From contig JAKAPT010000005.1 in assembly GCA_021806885.1 (NCBI GenBank), positions 1-48,768 on the forward strand: a stretch of 48,768 nt of DNA, read 5' to 3'. The translations under genes were made by a program, and so were the position numbers. Below are positions 12,537 through 19,849 of the stretch, piece after piece (positions within the stretch are counted from its first letter, which is position 1; the number at the start of each line of letters is the position of its first letter). The notes under the pieces were generated by a model. It was not told the DNA's origin. It searched no databases and saw only the letters and a list, made by a program, of their open reading frames with translations. This stretch comes from a bacterium (lineage in GTDB: Bacteria > SZUA-79 > Acidulodesulfobacterales > Acidulodesulfobacteraceae).

Positions 12537-15500
12537 ATGAAAAATAATCTGTCTTTAGGGCTCGACATCGGCTCCACCACCGTCAAATATGCCATTCTTG
12601 ACCGTGATTTTAACGTTATAGAGAAAAATTATGTAAGGTCTAACGGAGAATCCATAAAGACCGTATATAATGTCCTTGAAGATATCTTCAGCAGGTACAA
12701 GGAAGATTCGTTCCGCTCCATAGGAGCTACAGGATCAGGCTCAAAAACCGTGGGAGAGGTCCTGGGGATTCCAAACATTAACGAGCTTGTCGCCCAGGCT
12801 GAAGCGGTAAAATACCTCTATCCAGGGGCAAGAACGATAATAGAAATGGGCGGGCAGGATTCCAAATTTCTTATCCTTAATAAAAACAGGGAAACAGGGG
12901 AATTTTTTCTTGAGGATTTCGGCCTTAACGATTTATGCGCCGCGGGCACGGGTTCTTTTCTTGATCAGCAGGCTGAAAGGCTCAATATTAATATCGAGGA
13001 AGAATTCGGCCGACTCGCGCTCGAGTCGAAGAACCCATCGAAGATAGCTGGGAGATGCACCGTGTTCGCGAAGTCCGACATGATACACCTCCAGCAGGTG
13101 TCCACCCCTATACCTGATATCGTGGCAGGTTTATGCTACGCTGTCGCTAGAACGTTTATCGGTACGATAGCCAGGGGGAAAAAGTTTGAAAAGCCCATAA
13201 TTTTTCAGGGCGGAGTGGCATTTAACATGGGCATGGTGAGGGCATTTGAAGACATCCTCGGTTTAAAAAAAGGGGAGCTTATCATTCCTGAACACCATAC
13301 GGTTATGTCCGCGATAGGCATAGGCATAATTTCCAGGAGAGAGAAGAAATTTACATTCTACGGCCTGGGCGCCCTTAAGGATTTCATAGAAAGAAATAAA
13401 CAGACAGGCAGGTACAAAGAAAGGCTTTTGGATTCCAATAACCTCTCCGGAGGAAATGCCGATTTTGACGAAATTAAATCCTTAAAGAGATATGCCGGTC
13501 AGAGCGTGCCTGTTTATATCGGGGTTGATACCGGCTCTGTTTCCACGAACGTCGTTCTCCTCGACAAGGACAGGAACCTTTTAATAAAAAAATATAAAAA
13601 GACCAACGGAAGGTCGATAGAAGTGGTAAGGGATACCCTGTTAGAGATACACCTTACGCTTAAAAATTTAAATATTAATCCAGAGGTAATGGGGGTTTCG
13701 ACCACAGGGTCCGGGAGGTATTTGATAGCGGATTACATAGGGGCCGATATCGTAAAAAACGAAATCACCGCGCAGGCGACCGCTTCCGTTTTTATTGATG
13801 AAAGCGTAGACACGGTTTTCGAGATAGGCGGACAGGACTCAAAGTATATAAGGGTTAAAAACGGCGTAGTAGTGGATTTCGAGATGAACAAGGCCTGCGC
13901 CGCGGGAACAGGTTCATTTCTCGAGGAGCAGGCCCAGAAACTCGACATTGAAATCGTTGAAGATTTCTCAAGGAGGGCCTTTAGCGCCAGCGCTTCCTGC
14001 AGCCTTGGGGACAGGTGCACGGTTTTTATGGAGTCGGACCTTGTTTCGCATCAGCAGAAAGGGGCGGACAAGGACCAGCTGATAGCAGGGCTTGCGTATT
14101 CTATCGTTGAAAACTATTTAAACAAGGTTGTGCTTGGAAAGCCTGTCGGCGAAAGGATACTTTTTCAGGGCGGCGTTGCCCTGAACAAGGCGGTGGTCAG
14201 CGCGTTCGAGTCCGTCCTTAACAAAAAAATAATAATCCCGTCCCATAATGAGGTAACGGGGGCCATAGGAAGCGCACTCATCGCCTTCAAACATACGGGC
14301 CCTTCGAGGTTCGTAGGTTTTGACCTGAGGGAAAGAAAATATGAGGCTGAATCTTTTGAATGCCAGAAATGTTCGAACCTTTGCGACGTGAACAGGGTAA
14401 GCGTCGAAAACGAACCTTCCCACTATTACGGGGCAAGGTGCGATATATTTGAAATTGACAAGGACAAGAAGAAAAAAGGGGAGAACTTTTTCAAATATAG
14501 AAAAGAACTTCTTTTAAGCGGCTATGACAGGGAAAACGAAAAGGATTTTTCCAGGCCGAGGGTAGGAATACCGTTTTGCCTTGAGACATATGACCTTTTT
14601 CCTTTTTATAATGAGTTCTTCAATAATCTGGGCTTCAACGTCATTCTCTCCGACGAGACAAACAGGAATATTGTAAATATTTCCAATACCCTGTCGGTCA
14701 CCGACACATGTTTCCCCGTAAAGGTTGTCCTTGGCCACGTGAAAAATGTTATCGATAAGAAAATAGACGCCCTTTTTCTTCCCGCGCTTATAAACAGGGA
14801 AAAGAATCATGATTTTCAGGCAAATACCTATCAATGCCCATATATACAGGGCATACCTTTTATGTCGGGCTCCCTGCTGGAATTTAAAAATTTGAGGATT
14901 ATATCCCCAAAGATCCGGCTTCTTGAAGGGGAGAAAAATTACGAATCAACCATAAAAGAGCTTGAAAAGAGCTTTAAAAAATTCCATATTTCCAGGAACA
15001 AAATCATTTCCGCCTTTAATTCCGCCGTGGTTAGGCAAAGGGAATTTGTTGAAAAGCTGAAAATGAAGGGCAGGGAGGTATTGGAAAACTATGATAACTT
15101 GACCGTCCTCGTCGGCAGGCCTTACAATACCCAGGACGACGGAATAAACCTATCCATGTCCTCGAAGATATCCAGTCTCGGCGCGAACATAATTCCGATG
15201 GATTTTCTCGACTTCAGCGAGGTTTCGATATACGGAGAACACGACAACATGTTCTGGCATTCCGGGCATAAAATACTTTCTTCGGCGAAGATAATAATGG
15301 ATAACCCGAAGCTTAACGCGGTCTATGTTACAAACTACGGGTGCGGCCCAGATTCGTTCATCAAAACCTTTTTTTCCGATTACATGAAAAATAAACCCTA
15401 CCTTGAGATAGAAATCGACGAGCATAGCGCCGATGCCGGCTATGTAACCCGGCTCGAGGCATTTTACGACAGCCTCGGGGATTTTGCGCTCCATGTTTAG
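12537..15500 (+). CDS. BcrA/BadF/BadG/HgdC-type CoA dehydratase activase, two ASKHA domains plus DUF2229-like C-terminus
   Basis: Duplicated 'LGLDIGSTTVKYAILD'/'IGVDTGSVSTNVVLLD', 'EMGGQDSKF'/'EIGGQDSKY', 'CAAGTGSFLDQQAERL'/'CAAGTGSFLEEQAQKL'. Confidence 0.93.
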   Translation: MKNNLSLGLDIGSTTVKYAILDRDFNVIEKNYVRSNGESIKTVYNVLEDIFSRYKEDSFRSIGATGSGSKTVGEVLGIPNINELVAQAEAVKYLYPGARTIIEMGGQDSKFLILNKNRETGEFFLEDFGLNDLCAAGTGSFLDQQAERLNINIEEEFGRLALESKNPSKIAGRCTVFAKSDMIHLQQVSTPIPDIVAGLCYAVARTFIGTIARGKKFEKPIIFQGGVAFNMGMVRAFEDILGLKKGELIIPEHHTVMSAIGIGIISRREKKFTFYGLGALKDFIERNKQTGRYKERLLDSNNLSGGNADFDEIKSLKRYAGQSVPVYIGVDTGSVSTNVVLLDKDRNLLIKKYKKTNGRSIEVVRDTLLEIHLTLKNLNINPEVMGVSTTGSGRYLIADYIGADIVKNEITAQATASVFIDESVDTVFEIGGQDSKYIRVKNGVVVDFEMNKACAAGTGSFLEEQAQKLDIEIVEDFSRRAFSASASCSLGDRCTVFMESDLVSHQQKGADKDQLIAGLAYSIVENYLNKVVLGKPVGERILFQGGVALNKAVVSAFESVLNKKIIIPSHNEVTGAIGSALIAFKHTGPSRFVGFDLRERKYEAESFECQKCSNLCDVNRVSVENEPSHYYGARCDIFEIDKDKKKKGENFFKYRKELLLSGYDRENEKDFSRPRVGIPFCLETYDLFPFYNEFFNNLGFNVILSDETNRNIVNISNTLSVTDTCFPVKVVLGHVKNVIDKKIDALFLPALINREKNHDFQANTYQCPYIQGIPFMSGSLLEFKNLRIISPKIRLLEGEKNYESTIKELEKSFKKFHISRNKIISAFNSAVVRQREFVEKLKMKGREVLENYDNLTVLVGRPYNTQDDGINLSMSSKISSLGANIIPMDFLDFSEVSIYGEHDNMFWHSGHKILSSAKIIMDNPKLNAVYVTNYGCGPDSFIKTFFSDYMKNKPYLEIEIDEHSADAGYVTRLEAFYDSLGDFALHV

Positions 15501-15592: not shown

Positions 15593-16045
15593 ATGGAAAA
15601 TAAAAGGATTAAGGCGGTAATACGCAAGATAAGGGAGAAGGGCTATAGTATCACTCCACAGAGGGTCGAGATAATAAAGGCCGTTAAGGAGGATAAAACC
15701 CATCCGTCGGCCGCGGATATTTATAACAGTGTAAAAATGGTATATCCCATGATTTCCCTTAATACCGTTTATAAAAATCTTGCCCTGCTTTCGGAATTAA
15801 GAGAGGTCAGGGAGATAAAGACGCGCCAGGACGCCATTCGTTTCGACGGCGATATACATCCCCATGGACACATAATATGCGAGGGGTGTGGAAAAATAGA
15901 GGACCTTATGATAAACGAGGAAGATATAAAGGGCTTACTCAAGTCAAAAGAAAAGGGCATAGGCACCTTTGGCGTAATCAACGGCTTGAGCGTTGAACTT
16001 CACGGCCTTTGCAGCAATTGCTCGGCTCCCCCCTCGTTTAAATAA
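15593..16045 (+). CDS. Fur-family transcriptional regulator (PerR-like)
   Basis: 'KGYSITPQRVEIIKAV', 'ISLNTVYKNLALLSEL', 'HPHGHIICEGCGKIEDL', C-terminal 'HGLCSNC'. Confidence 0.93.
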   Translation: MENKRIKAVIRKIREKGYSITPQRVEIIKAVKEDKTHPSAADIYNSVKMVYPMISLNTVYKNLALLSELREVREIKTRQDAIRFDGDIHPHGHIICEGCGKIEDLMINEEDIKGLLKSKEKGIGTFGVINGLSVELHGLCSNCSAPPSFK

Positions 16046-16620
16046 TCGTAACCCGCAAGAAGCGCTTTTATGTTGTTTTCCTTCTCCCGGTCGTTTCTTG
16101 AAAAGAGGGCGGCCTGCCCGCAAATCGAACCGATATCAAGTATGCCGCCTTTCGCGGCGAACGCCCCTATCAGCGAAATAAACGGACTCACCCTTTCTTT
16201 CCCCATAGTTTCTTGTTCTACAAGGTTCGAAGCCGGGATTCTGTAAATATAATCCGTTTTTCCTTTCAATTTTTCATACACGCTTTCGTTGTCGGCGAGA
16301 AAAAAATTGCACGCGTTAAAACTTGAATAGTTGGAAATAATGAGGGTTTCCCTGCCGATTAAATGAATAAAGTTAAGGATTGATTGAAAATCGAGGCTGA
16401 TTATCGCATTTATATCGTATGAACAGCTGAAGGAATTGTATTTTCCTACCTTAATAAGCGAGTGGGTCAGGCTGAAATTCGATATGTTTGACATAGGTTT
16501 TATTAACAACGAGGCGTCGAATCCCTCTGCTTTTAAGGATATATACAAAAGCTTGCTTAAATGTTTTATTTCTTTGAAATCGTTGCCTATAAGAACAAGG
16601 CTGTAATTAATATTTTCCAT
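16000..16620 (-). CDS. Divergent IorB-like protein (indolepyruvate:ferredoxin oxidoreductase beta/gamma-like)
   Basis: Downstream of and overlapping the IorA-like ORF (GTG/ATG region 16607-16620); C-terminal 'NLVEQETMGKERVSPFISLIGAFAAKGGILD' resembles the IorB C-terminus. The canonical N-terminal GVGGQG motif is absent. Confidence 0.5.
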   Translation of the reverse strand: MENINYSLVLIGNDFKEIKHLSKLLYISLKAEGFDASLLIKPMSNISNFSLTHSLIKVGKYNSFSCSYDINAIISLDFQSILNFIHLIGRETLIISNYSSFNACNFFLADNESVYEKLKGKTDYIYRIPASNLVEQETMGKERVSPFISLIGAFAAKGGILDIGSICGQAALFSRNDREKENNIKALLAGYDYLNEGGAEQLLQRP

Positions 16621-18346
16621 ATTTTATATCTATCCTGTTTTCCAGGGATTTCCTTTTCTTTATTTCCTTCCTTTTTCTTAATTTTATTGCCCGGTGCGGA
16701 CATATGTCCACGCATAAATAACAGATATTGCAGATGGCTGGTTCTATTACGAGCTTTCCGTCACTATCCGCGACTATTCCCGGACATTTAGTTTCCTGTA
16801 CGCATAGCTTGCATTCGTATTTATCGCAGACCGTGCTTTTTATTTCCAGGTATTTAGTATAATCCAGATCCCTTCCCCTTTTCGCGAAAGCTGAACAGTC
16901 GTTGTCGATAAATATGAGCCGGGCCCCTTTTTTCTTTATATCTTTTAGCCTTGCCCTGCCCCTTATTATCGTGTTTTTTAAGGATTTTAGGGAAGGGTTA
17001 AAGGTGGCTTTATGAAAATTCCCTTCATAATCAAAAATTGATTTGTAGATAATGAAGCTTACGTTTGACGAACCGTTAAGCTTTTCAAGGACTATGTCAA
17101 TCTGGCCTGATAACTTTGAAGATGGAATAACCATAAAGAGCCTTTTGCCCGAGTTTGCAGGCTCAAGATTTAAAACAAAATAAAGCGGGTTTTCAACTGT
17201 AAAAACATTAGGGAAATTGTATTTTAACGCACTCGATTTAAGCAAGGAGAAACAAATATCGTCTCCGATAAATATATCATTTTTTACCGATTCGTCATTT
17301 TTATGCCCCTGCAAAAAGGCATAAAGGTTACAGCCGGGGCAAAATGAAGGGGAAACGCTTATTTCACCGGGCTCGAAATATTCAAAGCACAATCTCTTAT
17401 TGTTTTTGCCTCCCAGGGTACTGAAATTATCATATTTCAATTGGGAATCCAGGGAATTTTTTATCTCGGAGAGATTGGAATCCAGGAATGAATAATCGTC
17501 GAAAATAAATAAATTCTTATAATATCCCCTGCAGTTATTTTCGAGTATCCTGTTAAATTCATCGGTAAAAAAGGGGTTAAGCAGGTTAAATAGAATTATA
17601 TCCGAGCTTTTGGATATATGGGGGTTTTCTATCAGCCACTGAAAATTATCCGAGTCGGTAAGTATCAGGTTTTCATGGGTTTCGCCCGAAAAGAATTCGA
17701 CAAGGCTGCCCGTGTTTTTAAATAAAGACAGGTCGCGTCTCATATCCACAGGGAGGGAGGGTTTATTGTTGTTCATCCCCTCCATCACGTTCAGGTCCGG
17801 TTTTATTTCGGTCCTCTGGGCCGTTTTTAAATCATCTTCTGCCGTGAATTCATTGAAAATGGAGTTATTCGCAAGGATAAGAACCGGAAGCTTAAGCCTT
17901 TCCGAAAGATCGAAGAATTGAGGCAATATGTGGATAAAATCATCCTGCCGGTGGAAATTATATACCGGAAAAATATTTTTTATTTCGCCGGGCAGAATTT
18001 TCTCTCCGCTTTTTTTAATGATGAAGGTTACAACCCCGCCCCTCAATGAACCACTTGATAGATATTTTTCAAGATATGAAAAATTAAGGAGGGACTGGTC
18101 GTTTATTAGCGCCATAACCCGCTGGTTGGTAATGCTCAGAGAATATACCGAGGTCCAGAGAATTTCCGAGTCCGGATAAAATTTCAGCCCGGAGGGGTCT
18201 TGAAGCTCAGGAATGACCGGAAGAAGGGCTTTGTCAAGAAATATGCTTTTTATTCCAAGAAATCTTGCGCTCCTGAGAAGGCGGTCTCCCCCGCTTATTA
18301 ATTCGTAAAAAGGATTTTGAGCCGTCTTATTTTTTTCCCCAAACAC
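16607..18346 (-). CDS. Divergent IorA-like protein (indolepyruvate:ferredoxin oxidoreductase alpha-like) with C-terminal 2[4Fe-4S] ferredoxin domain
   Basis: 'CPGCNLYAFL' at the position of CPGCPHR; C-terminal 'CDKYECKLCVQETKCPGIVADSDGKLVIEPAICNICYLCVDICPHRAI'. GTG start preceded by GGAG. Confidence 0.6.
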   Translation of the reverse strand: MFGEKNKTAQNPFYELISGGDRLLRSARFLGIKSIFLDKALLPVIPELQDPSGLKFYPDSEILWTSVYSLSITNQRVMALINDQSLLNFSYLEKYLSSGSLRGGVVTFIIKKSGEKILPGEIKNIFPVYNFHRQDDFIHILPQFFDLSERLKLPVLILANNSIFNEFTAEDDLKTAQRTEIKPDLNVMEGMNNNKPSLPVDMRRDLSLFKNTGSLVEFFSGETHENLILTDSDNFQWLIENPHISKSSDIILFNLLNPFFTDEFNRILENNCRGYYKNLFIFDDYSFLDSNLSEIKNSLDSQLKYDNFSTLGGKNNKRLCFEYFEPGEISVSPSFCPGCNLYAFLQGHKNDESVKNDIFIGDDICFSLLKSSALKYNFPNVFTVENPLYFVLNLEPANSGKRLFMVIPSSKLSGQIDIVLEKLNGSSNVSFIIYKSIFDYEGNFHKATFNPSLKSLKNTIIRGRARLKDIKKKGARLIFIDNDCSAFAKRGRDLDYTKYLEIKSTVCDKYECKLCVQETKCPGIVADSDGKLVIEPAICNICYLCVDICPHRAIKLRKRKEIKKRKSLENRIDIKYGKY

Positions 18347-18355
18347 CTTTACTCC

Positions 18356-19849
18356 TTACATCAGATCGATAGGCTCCGCGCCTTCGATTTTTTTTCCTTT
18401 AACGCTCTTTTTTGAGACCGATATGGCTGTCGCGATTATATTTAAAATAAGAAGGGTTATCATCACCACCATAAGTCCGCGAATAAACGCGGCCCCGGCA
18501 ATATGGGACGGGGCGTAGGAAATGTTTTTATAACCGCGCGCAGATACATATTGGTCTTTAAACAGGGTCAATATCAGCCCGGAAATATCTACGCCGAATA
18601 TAAGCCCAAGGGCCCTCATCATATTCAGTATGCCTCCCGCGACCCCAAGTCTTTCCGTCGGAGCCGATAGCATTATCGCGCTGTTATTTGGGGGAGTGAA
18701 TATGCCCATTCCGACTCCCAGGATGACAAATTCCGCCACGAGCATGTAAATATTAACCGATGTCCCCAGAAAAGAAAGAAAAAGCGTGGCGACAGCGCAT
18801 ACGGACATTCCCATAGTGGTCATAATCCTTGAGCCTATCTTGTCGGATATCGCCCCGGCAAAAGGGGCTATTATTGCCATAGACAGGGGTATAGGAGTCA
18901 AAAGGGTGCCGGTTAACGCGGCATTATAGTGGAGCACCCCCTCCATGTAAAACGGCATAAGGAATAAAACGGCGAACAAAACGTAATACGAAAGAAGGCC
19001 GGTCGTGTTACCCGTGCAAAAGTCCCTCGCGTTAAAAAGCTTTAGGTCAATCATGGGATACTTGACCTTTAGTTCGTTATACACGAAAAGGGGAAGCAGA
19101 ATCACCCCTATCGCCAGGTAAAAAATAATAATTGGAGACGTCCAGCCCAATTCATGCCCTTCATTCAGTCCGAGCACAAGGAATGCAAGGCCTATAGCGA
19201 ATAAAGATATTCCAAGGAAATCTATTTTTTCTTTTTTGTGATCTTTCGAGCCTGCTCCCGGCAATATATATAGCGCCATAATAGTCCCTATTATTCCGAT
19301 GGGAACGTTGACGTAGAAGATGAAGCGCCAACCGATGGCTGCAATGATAATCCCCCCAACGAAAGGTCCTATGGACATCGCGATAGCCTGGATGGAACCC
19401 TGAAGTCCTATGGCCCTTCCCAGTTCGTTAGACGGAAAGGCCTGCGTGATTATCGCGACCGAGTTTGCCTGAAGAAGCCCAGCTCCGACGGCCTGCAATA
19501 CGCGCGAAAATATGATAAACCCGGCGGAAGGAGCAAATCCGCAGAGCGCGGAACCGATGGTAAATACGATGAATCCCGTGTTATACAGTCTTGTTCGCCC
19601 AAACATATCGGCCAGTCTGCCGAAGAGGGGCAAAAAAACCGTAAGGGTAAGCATATACGCCATGGCTACCCATTCAATGACCGCCATACGGACCGAGAAG
19701 CTTTTTTCCATCGTAGGCATTGCTACGTTTACGATGCTGACGTCTAAGGCGGACATTGTGGCACCCACGAGGACCGTTGAAAGAATAAACCACTTCCACT
19801 TGGGGCTTGAGGAAAAAAAGGGATGGGGAAAAGTAAATGTTTTGCTCAA
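18356..19849 (-). CDS. MFS transporter, DHA2 family
   Basis: 'LDVSIVNVAMPTMEKSFSV', 'RVLQAVGAGLLQANSVAIITQAFPSNELGRAIGLQGSIQAIAMSIGPFVGGII'; 14-TM pattern. Confidence 0.9.
   Translation of the reverse strand: MSKTFTFPHPFFSSSPKWKWFILSTVLVGATMSALDVSIVNVAMPTMEKSFSVRMAVIEWVAMAYMLTLTVFLPLFGRLADMFGRTRLYNTGFIVFTIGSALCGFAPSAGFIIFSRVLQAVGAGLLQANSVAIITQAFPSNELGRAIGLQGSIQAIAMSIGPFVGGIIIAAIGWRFIFYVNVPIGIIGTIMALYILPGAGSKDHKKEKIDFLGISLFAIGLAFLVLGLNEGHELGWTSPIIIFYLAIGVILLPLFVYNELKVKYPMIDLKLFNARDFCTGNTTGLLSYYVLFAVLFLMPFYMEGVLHYNAALTGTLLTPIPLSMAIIAPFAGAISDKIGSRIMTTMGMSVCAVATLFLSFLGTSVNIYMLVAEFVILGVGMGIFTPPNNSAIMLSAPTERLGVAGGILNMMRALGLIFGVDISGLILTLFKDQYVSARGYKNISYAPSHIAGAAFIRGLMVVMITLLILNIIATAISVSKKSVKGKKIEGAEPIDLM

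Follow-up and report, generated by a model that had tools for sequence, protein, structure and literature searches.

Two overlapping genes appear to encode a three-cluster electron relay, free of thiamine pyrophosphate (TPP), that derives from the 2-oxoacid:ferredoxin oxidoreductase (OFOR) superfamily. The pair is best read as a neofunctionalised paralogue of indolepyruvate:ferredoxin oxidoreductase (IorAB) specific to Ca. Acidulodesulfobacteriota. Judged from sequence, this reading has a probability of about 0.6. It draws on homology to IorA/IorB, loss of catalytic motifs with 12 cysteines kept, purifying selection, an occurrence close to fixation across the phylum, and the existence of canonical IorAB alongside. 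The genes lie in a window of 48,768 nucleotides (the whole stretch of DNA that was analysed), which belongs to a 1.38 Mb genome in 82 contigs that is 99.6% complete. The relevant genes of the window are:

16607..18346, minus strand: IorA-like alpha subunit without a recognisable TPP site (579 aa, GTG start)
16000..16620, minus strand: IorB-like beta subunit, POR-gamma fold without GxGGQG (206 aa)
18356..19849, minus strand: DHA2/EmrB-type MFS transporter, ending 9 bp upstream of alpha
15593-16045, convergent to beta: Fur/PerR-type gene, overlapping beta by 46 bp
12537..15500, plus strand: 987-aa double BcrAD-type activase with a DUF2229 domain, beyond the Fur/PerR-type gene

The alpha-like and beta-like reading frames, both on the minus strand, share 14 bp and are full-length; an earlier note on this DNA had described them as overlapping and full-length. 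The MFS transporter gene is a probable operon mate of alpha. Among the loci of the phylum, the order AspS-MFS-alpha-beta, followed by convergent PerR and the activase, is nearly constant, and the activase is close to the pair at every locus that reaches that far. Synteny runs across the whole AspS-to-GroEL block, UppS included, and genomic adjacency is thus a weak guide to the function of the pair. By inspection, the C-terminal part of the 987-aa activase is cysteine-rich and could carry a cluster-binding domain of its own.

Searches with family models placed alpha only by its ferredoxin part. Its match to TIGR03336 (IOR_alpha) reaches 32.1 bits at positions 516-595, confined to the C-terminal ferredoxin part, against an equivalog cut-off of 650.9 bits; the earlier note had proposed a comparison with this model. 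Canonical IorA copies of the phylum also fall under the cut-off (up to 643 bits), so the cut-off is strict, yet the shortfall of alpha is of another order. Pfam and NCBIfam gave nothing convincing for alpha besides Fe-S domains, and no recognisable cofactor motif. Beta matches POR (PF01558) weakly, with an E value of 9e-4 in the window and values down to 2e-10 for the betas of relatives. A search of PDB sequences with the profiles of alpha and beta gave ferredoxin-type or chance matches and nothing else.

Evidence for a wider relationship came from profile-profile comparison with hhalign, with the canonical IorA/IorB reference taken from the same phylum. Significant alignments to canonical IorA were obtained for the N-terminal region of alpha (E 1.2e-9), its CxGC domain (E 2e-5) and its ferredoxin domain (E 5e-16), and there was no significant alignment for the middle domain (E 0.72). 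Beta aligned with IorB at an E value of 6.5e-6. When the ferredoxin domain was removed, alpha still scored 43.5, and none of 30 column-shuffled controls scored above 22.7; the score of beta against IorB was 42.2, versus at most 16.2 in 15 shuffled controls. On the evidence of these profiles, the pair is related to the OFOR alpha and gamma domains, and for alpha the relationship also holds outside the ferredoxin domain. Identity between alpha and canonical IorA is approximately 18%. The domain order of alpha and beta is that of IOR, not that of PFOR.

Structure prediction was informative mainly for beta, whose model (pLDDT 82) adopts the POR-gamma fold, with PorC/OorC as top Foldseek matches (probability 1.0, E down to 1.3e-9). 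The AlphaFold model of alpha, built from 15 alignment rows, is weak (pLDDT 59, pTM 0.34) and too poor for cluster geometry. In Foldseek, this low-confidence model has alpha subunits of OFORs along with ThDP enzymes as its best matches, which is supportive only; by the model, the ThDP-enzyme fold of alpha is probably intact.

The strongest argument for a relay comes from the residues that were kept and lost. A MAFFT alignment of 25 alpha homologues and 16 canonical IorA sequences of the phylum contains 149 columns that are invariant in the canonical proteins, consisting of 12 cysteines and 137 other residues. Every one of the 12 cysteines persists in 25/25 alpha homologues, as do just 13 of the 137 other columns. 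Even at the level of 23 of 25 homologues, none of the canonical invariant Asp (0/9), Asn (0/7), Ser (0/10), Thr (0/7), His (0/4) or Gln (0/3) residues survives. The hypergeometric chance that the 25 kept columns would include all 12 cysteines is approximately 3e-11, a value that is descriptive only, since the sequences are related and the cysteines help to anchor the alignment of alpha with IorA. Beyond these 12, no cysteine column is invariant among the 25 alpha homologues. The positions concerned are:

17330..17341, minus strand: CxGC of alpha (C336 and C339), predicted to ligate the proximal cluster, invariant across all 25 homologues
17252..17254, minus strand: alpha C365 (in G..CFSL, which aligns with GDIGCYTL of canonical IorA), third of the predicted proximal ligands, placed by hhalign and by the alignment
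16895..16897, minus strand: alpha C484 (in the column of C575 of canonical IorA), fourth of the predicted proximal ligands, placed by MAFFT and not by hhalign, invariant in both families
16700..16828, minus strand: C-terminal double [4Fe-4S] ferredoxin domain with eight invariant cysteines (C507, 512, 515, 521, 539, 542, 545 and 549)
17117..17125, minus strand: alpha residues 408-410, in the place of the GDS of canonical IorA (Mg/TPP motif), motif lost
16423..16425, minus strand: beta C66, invariant in 25/25, not invariant in canonical IorB
16309..16311, minus strand: beta C104, invariant in 25/25, not invariant in canonical IorB

The residue aligned with canonical E72, which we take from family knowledge to be the TPP-activating Glu of the N-terminal domain, is changed in 25/25 alpha homologues. 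The G and D of the GDS are likewise gone in 25/25, and the Asp-Asn of the Mg/TPP motif GD(S/G)...(D)N is not kept together at the aligned place. The substrate-region motifs (HSSQ)NEQD and TGHQ are mostly deleted, and they are missing from all 25 homologues or almost all; the PGTP of canonical IorA has also disappeared. GxGGQG is absent from all beta relatives and present in 12/12 canonical IorB of the phylum, in line with the earlier remark that beta lacks GVGGQG. In solved OFORs, Mg is bound near TPP by a GDG motif together with an Asn, an activating Glu is in contact with N1' of TPP, the proximal cluster has CXGC ligands, and TPP and Mg are intrinsic cofactors (PMC5020499). The earlier description of an IorA/IorB-like pair with lost catalytic motifs was thus borne out across 25 homologues, with no alignment restoring the TPP/Mg motifs. 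That note had also recognised an intact double [4Fe-4S] domain, to which the eight invariant cysteines belong, and a "relict CPGC"; the CxGC is there, but "relict" is too weak a word for a motif that is invariant and accompanied by two more cysteines aligned with canonical invariants. Given that CxGC, C365, C484 and the eight ferredoxin cysteines are all kept, the prediction is for three [4Fe-4S] clusters, one proximal and two of the ferredoxin type.

GTDB phylum SZUA-79 corresponds to Ca. Acidulodesulfobacteriota (PMC11382960), acid-mine-drainage bacteria that carry dissimilatory sulfate reduction genes (PMC6776010). Close homologues of the pair are found in metagenome-assembled genomes, including that of isolate SZUA-79 (QIJE01000028), after which the phylum is named, and it is through these relatives that the source genome is presumed to belong there. 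The pair is present in 25/30 genomes of the phylum, which are all 25 with the segment assembled, and the homologues are full-length. Of the remaining five, G003, G006 and G029 also lack AspS, which is essential and encoded on this segment, and in G010 and G013 the contigs stop just before the pair; these apparent absences are assembly gaps. Joint absence of the pair, the PerR orthologue and the activase from the five genomes had been considered as a sign of functional linkage and was rejected as an assembly artefact, given the missing AspS and the contig ends. The AspS segment is missing from G003, G006 and G029 even though the completeness of two of these is put at 97-98%, and absence of a gene in MAGs calls for a segment control. 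A scan of 356 bacterial genomes outside the family found no relative of the pair, nor did a pattern-seeded search, not exhaustive for remote forms, of the other records in a collection of 85,000 species.

Identity among the phylum homologues is 34-46% for alpha and 46-62% for beta; AspS over the same relatives is 67-76% identical, and alpha ranks with the most rapidly evolving proteins of the block. In the closest pairs, alpha has a dN/dS (pairwise Nei-Gojobori) of 0.11-0.18 and beta one of 0.03-0.15, compared with approximately 0.05-0.12 for canonical iorA by the same method. By these ratios, both genes are under purifying selection. The earlier note had argued for selection rather than decay, and the ratios, the 25 intact homologues and the conserved synteny bear it out; it had named frameshifted relatives as the observation that would point the other way, and none of the 25 copies carries a frameshift or an internal stop. 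Two loci are unusual in copy number. At L049 (G011:C51, 6991-7805), a second, partial beta C-terminus (profile residues 161-196) lies just downstream of the intact beta and is either a local duplication or an assembly artefact. Genome G024 has two diverged copies of the pair (L059 and L048) in one MAG, on separate low-coverage contigs, and bin contamination is more likely than a true duplication.

The earlier note had suggested a search for canonical iorAB elsewhere in the genome, and such genes were found. A canonical IorA match of full or near-full length occurs in 29/30 phylum genomes, the exception being a genome that is 59% complete, so the ordinary function of IorAB is covered. Canonical IorA in the phylum (L031 and L068-L093) falls into two groups that are approximately 37% identical, one with HSSQNEQD and the other without. 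The source genome shows the second group only, and its copy reads SSSNEQD.

The earlier note had left the role of the pair between an electron transfer scaffold, a sensor and a new oxidoreductase. That the role is non-canonical stands, and the choice is partly settled, with electron transfer fitting best. A new oxidoreductase, in which a different cofactor or substrate would occupy the emptied TPP pocket and the clusters would work for its reaction, is doubtful. It would account for the new lineage-specific invariants in the former catalytic domains of alpha (for example W64, G103, F126, P127, N130 and S372) and for the two new invariant cysteines of beta, but the profile searches of alpha, convincing for Fe-S domains only, do not reveal a cofactor motif. 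It is also unlikely that the pair acts as a pseudoenzyme subunit, with alpha-prime/beta-prime replacing half of the canonical IorAB dimer to regulate it, scaffold it or add an electron exit. OFORs are dimers of protomers (PMC5020499), and canonical iorAB is nearly always in the same genomes. However, the low identity of alpha to canonical IorA leaves little sign of a shared dimer interface, and the pair includes a beta partner of its own and is located away from iorAB.

Quite improbable is an Fe-S redox or oxygen sensor partnered with the neighbouring PerR/Fur-type regulator. The PerR/Fur gene is convergent to the pair at nearly all loci, and C66 and C104 of beta, which sit in low-confidence loops of its model, could be redox-active. 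However, neither protein has a domain for DNA binding or signalling, the seeming joint loss with PerR reflects assembly gaps, and L047 in G002 has alpha, beta and the activase but neither the MFS nor the PerR gene next to the pair. A working TPP-dependent oxoacid oxidoreductase with motifs diverged past recognition is very improbable: G361 and, in part, D362 of GDIGC persist and the ThDP-enzyme fold is probably intact, but 25 species, with few or no exceptions, have lost the Glu, GD, NEQD and GHQ, and the GxGGQG of beta is gone as well. Decay of a pseudogene pair, which the rapid evolution of alpha might suggest, is already refuted by dN/dS far below 1 and by 25 intact copies with invariant cysteines.

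An electron relay would have originated as follows. An ancient IorAB paralogue may have arisen in Ca. Acidulodesulfobacteriota or been kept only there, giving up TPP-dependent oxoacid chemistry and being retained for electron transfer. Alpha-prime and beta-prime would form an OFOR-like complex, in which the cysteines of CxGC, C365 and C484 would bind the proximal [4Fe-4S] cluster and the C-terminal domain two more. Electrons would enter at one end of the three-cluster chain and leave at the other, passing between ferredoxin or another partner and a client. The adjacent ATP-dependent activase is a possible, speculative client. PF06050, the usual dehydratase partner of such activases, had no match above cut-off in the 30 phylum genomes, so the pair and the activase would form an ATP-driven Fe-S reductase system. 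This more specific proposal, that the TPP-free OFOR complex is the dedicated low-potential electron donor of the double-activase/DUF2229 protein in a system of an undescribed kind, is unlikely to hold as worded.

OFORs are central to anaerobic carbon metabolism. In the pair, nearly every invariant residue has been removed except the cluster-binding cysteines, which would separate the electron wire from the catalytic engine and provide a natural experiment on whether three clusters in a chain can work alone. The two proteins would be signature proteins, close to core genes, of one uncultivated candidate phylum that cycles sulfur and iron. IorAB itself is known; what is new here is a phylum-wide, presumably non-thiamine paralogue of it, and no description of a TPP-less OFOR was found in the open-access literature. 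Beyond the first reading of this DNA lie the phylum-wide spread, the retention of every cluster-ligand cysteine with nearly all other invariants lost, and the two cysteines gained by beta.

Of the known systems, IorA/IorB (TIGR03336, POR PF01558) is the closest comparison. The pair shares its two-gene layout, the POR-gamma fold of beta, all 12 cysteines, and the order of alpha domains, namely TPP-type domains, the CxGC domain and the C-terminal double [4Fe-4S] domain. It differs in lacking the TPP-activating Glu, the Mg/TPP GD motif, NEQD/GHQ and the beta GxGGQG, in being only about 18% identical, in its two new invariant beta cysteines, and in scoring 32 bits versus the 650.9 cut-off. With the wider OFOR superfamily (PFOR, OGOR and KOR; e.g., 6n2n, 5b46 and 8ys5) it has in common the fold, by top Foldseek matches, and a predicted proximal [4Fe-4S] cluster; unlike the pair, these enzymes have TPP and Mg as intrinsic cofactors (PMC5020499), and the domain order of the pair is that of IOR and not PFOR. 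Polyferredoxins and Fe-S relay subunits of the RnfB, MvhB and FwdF type resemble the pair in sequence matches within the ferredoxin domain and in the predicted role as a multi-cluster electron wire, whereas the wire of the pair would be carried on a full-length former ThDP enzyme scaffold with a POR-gamma partner.
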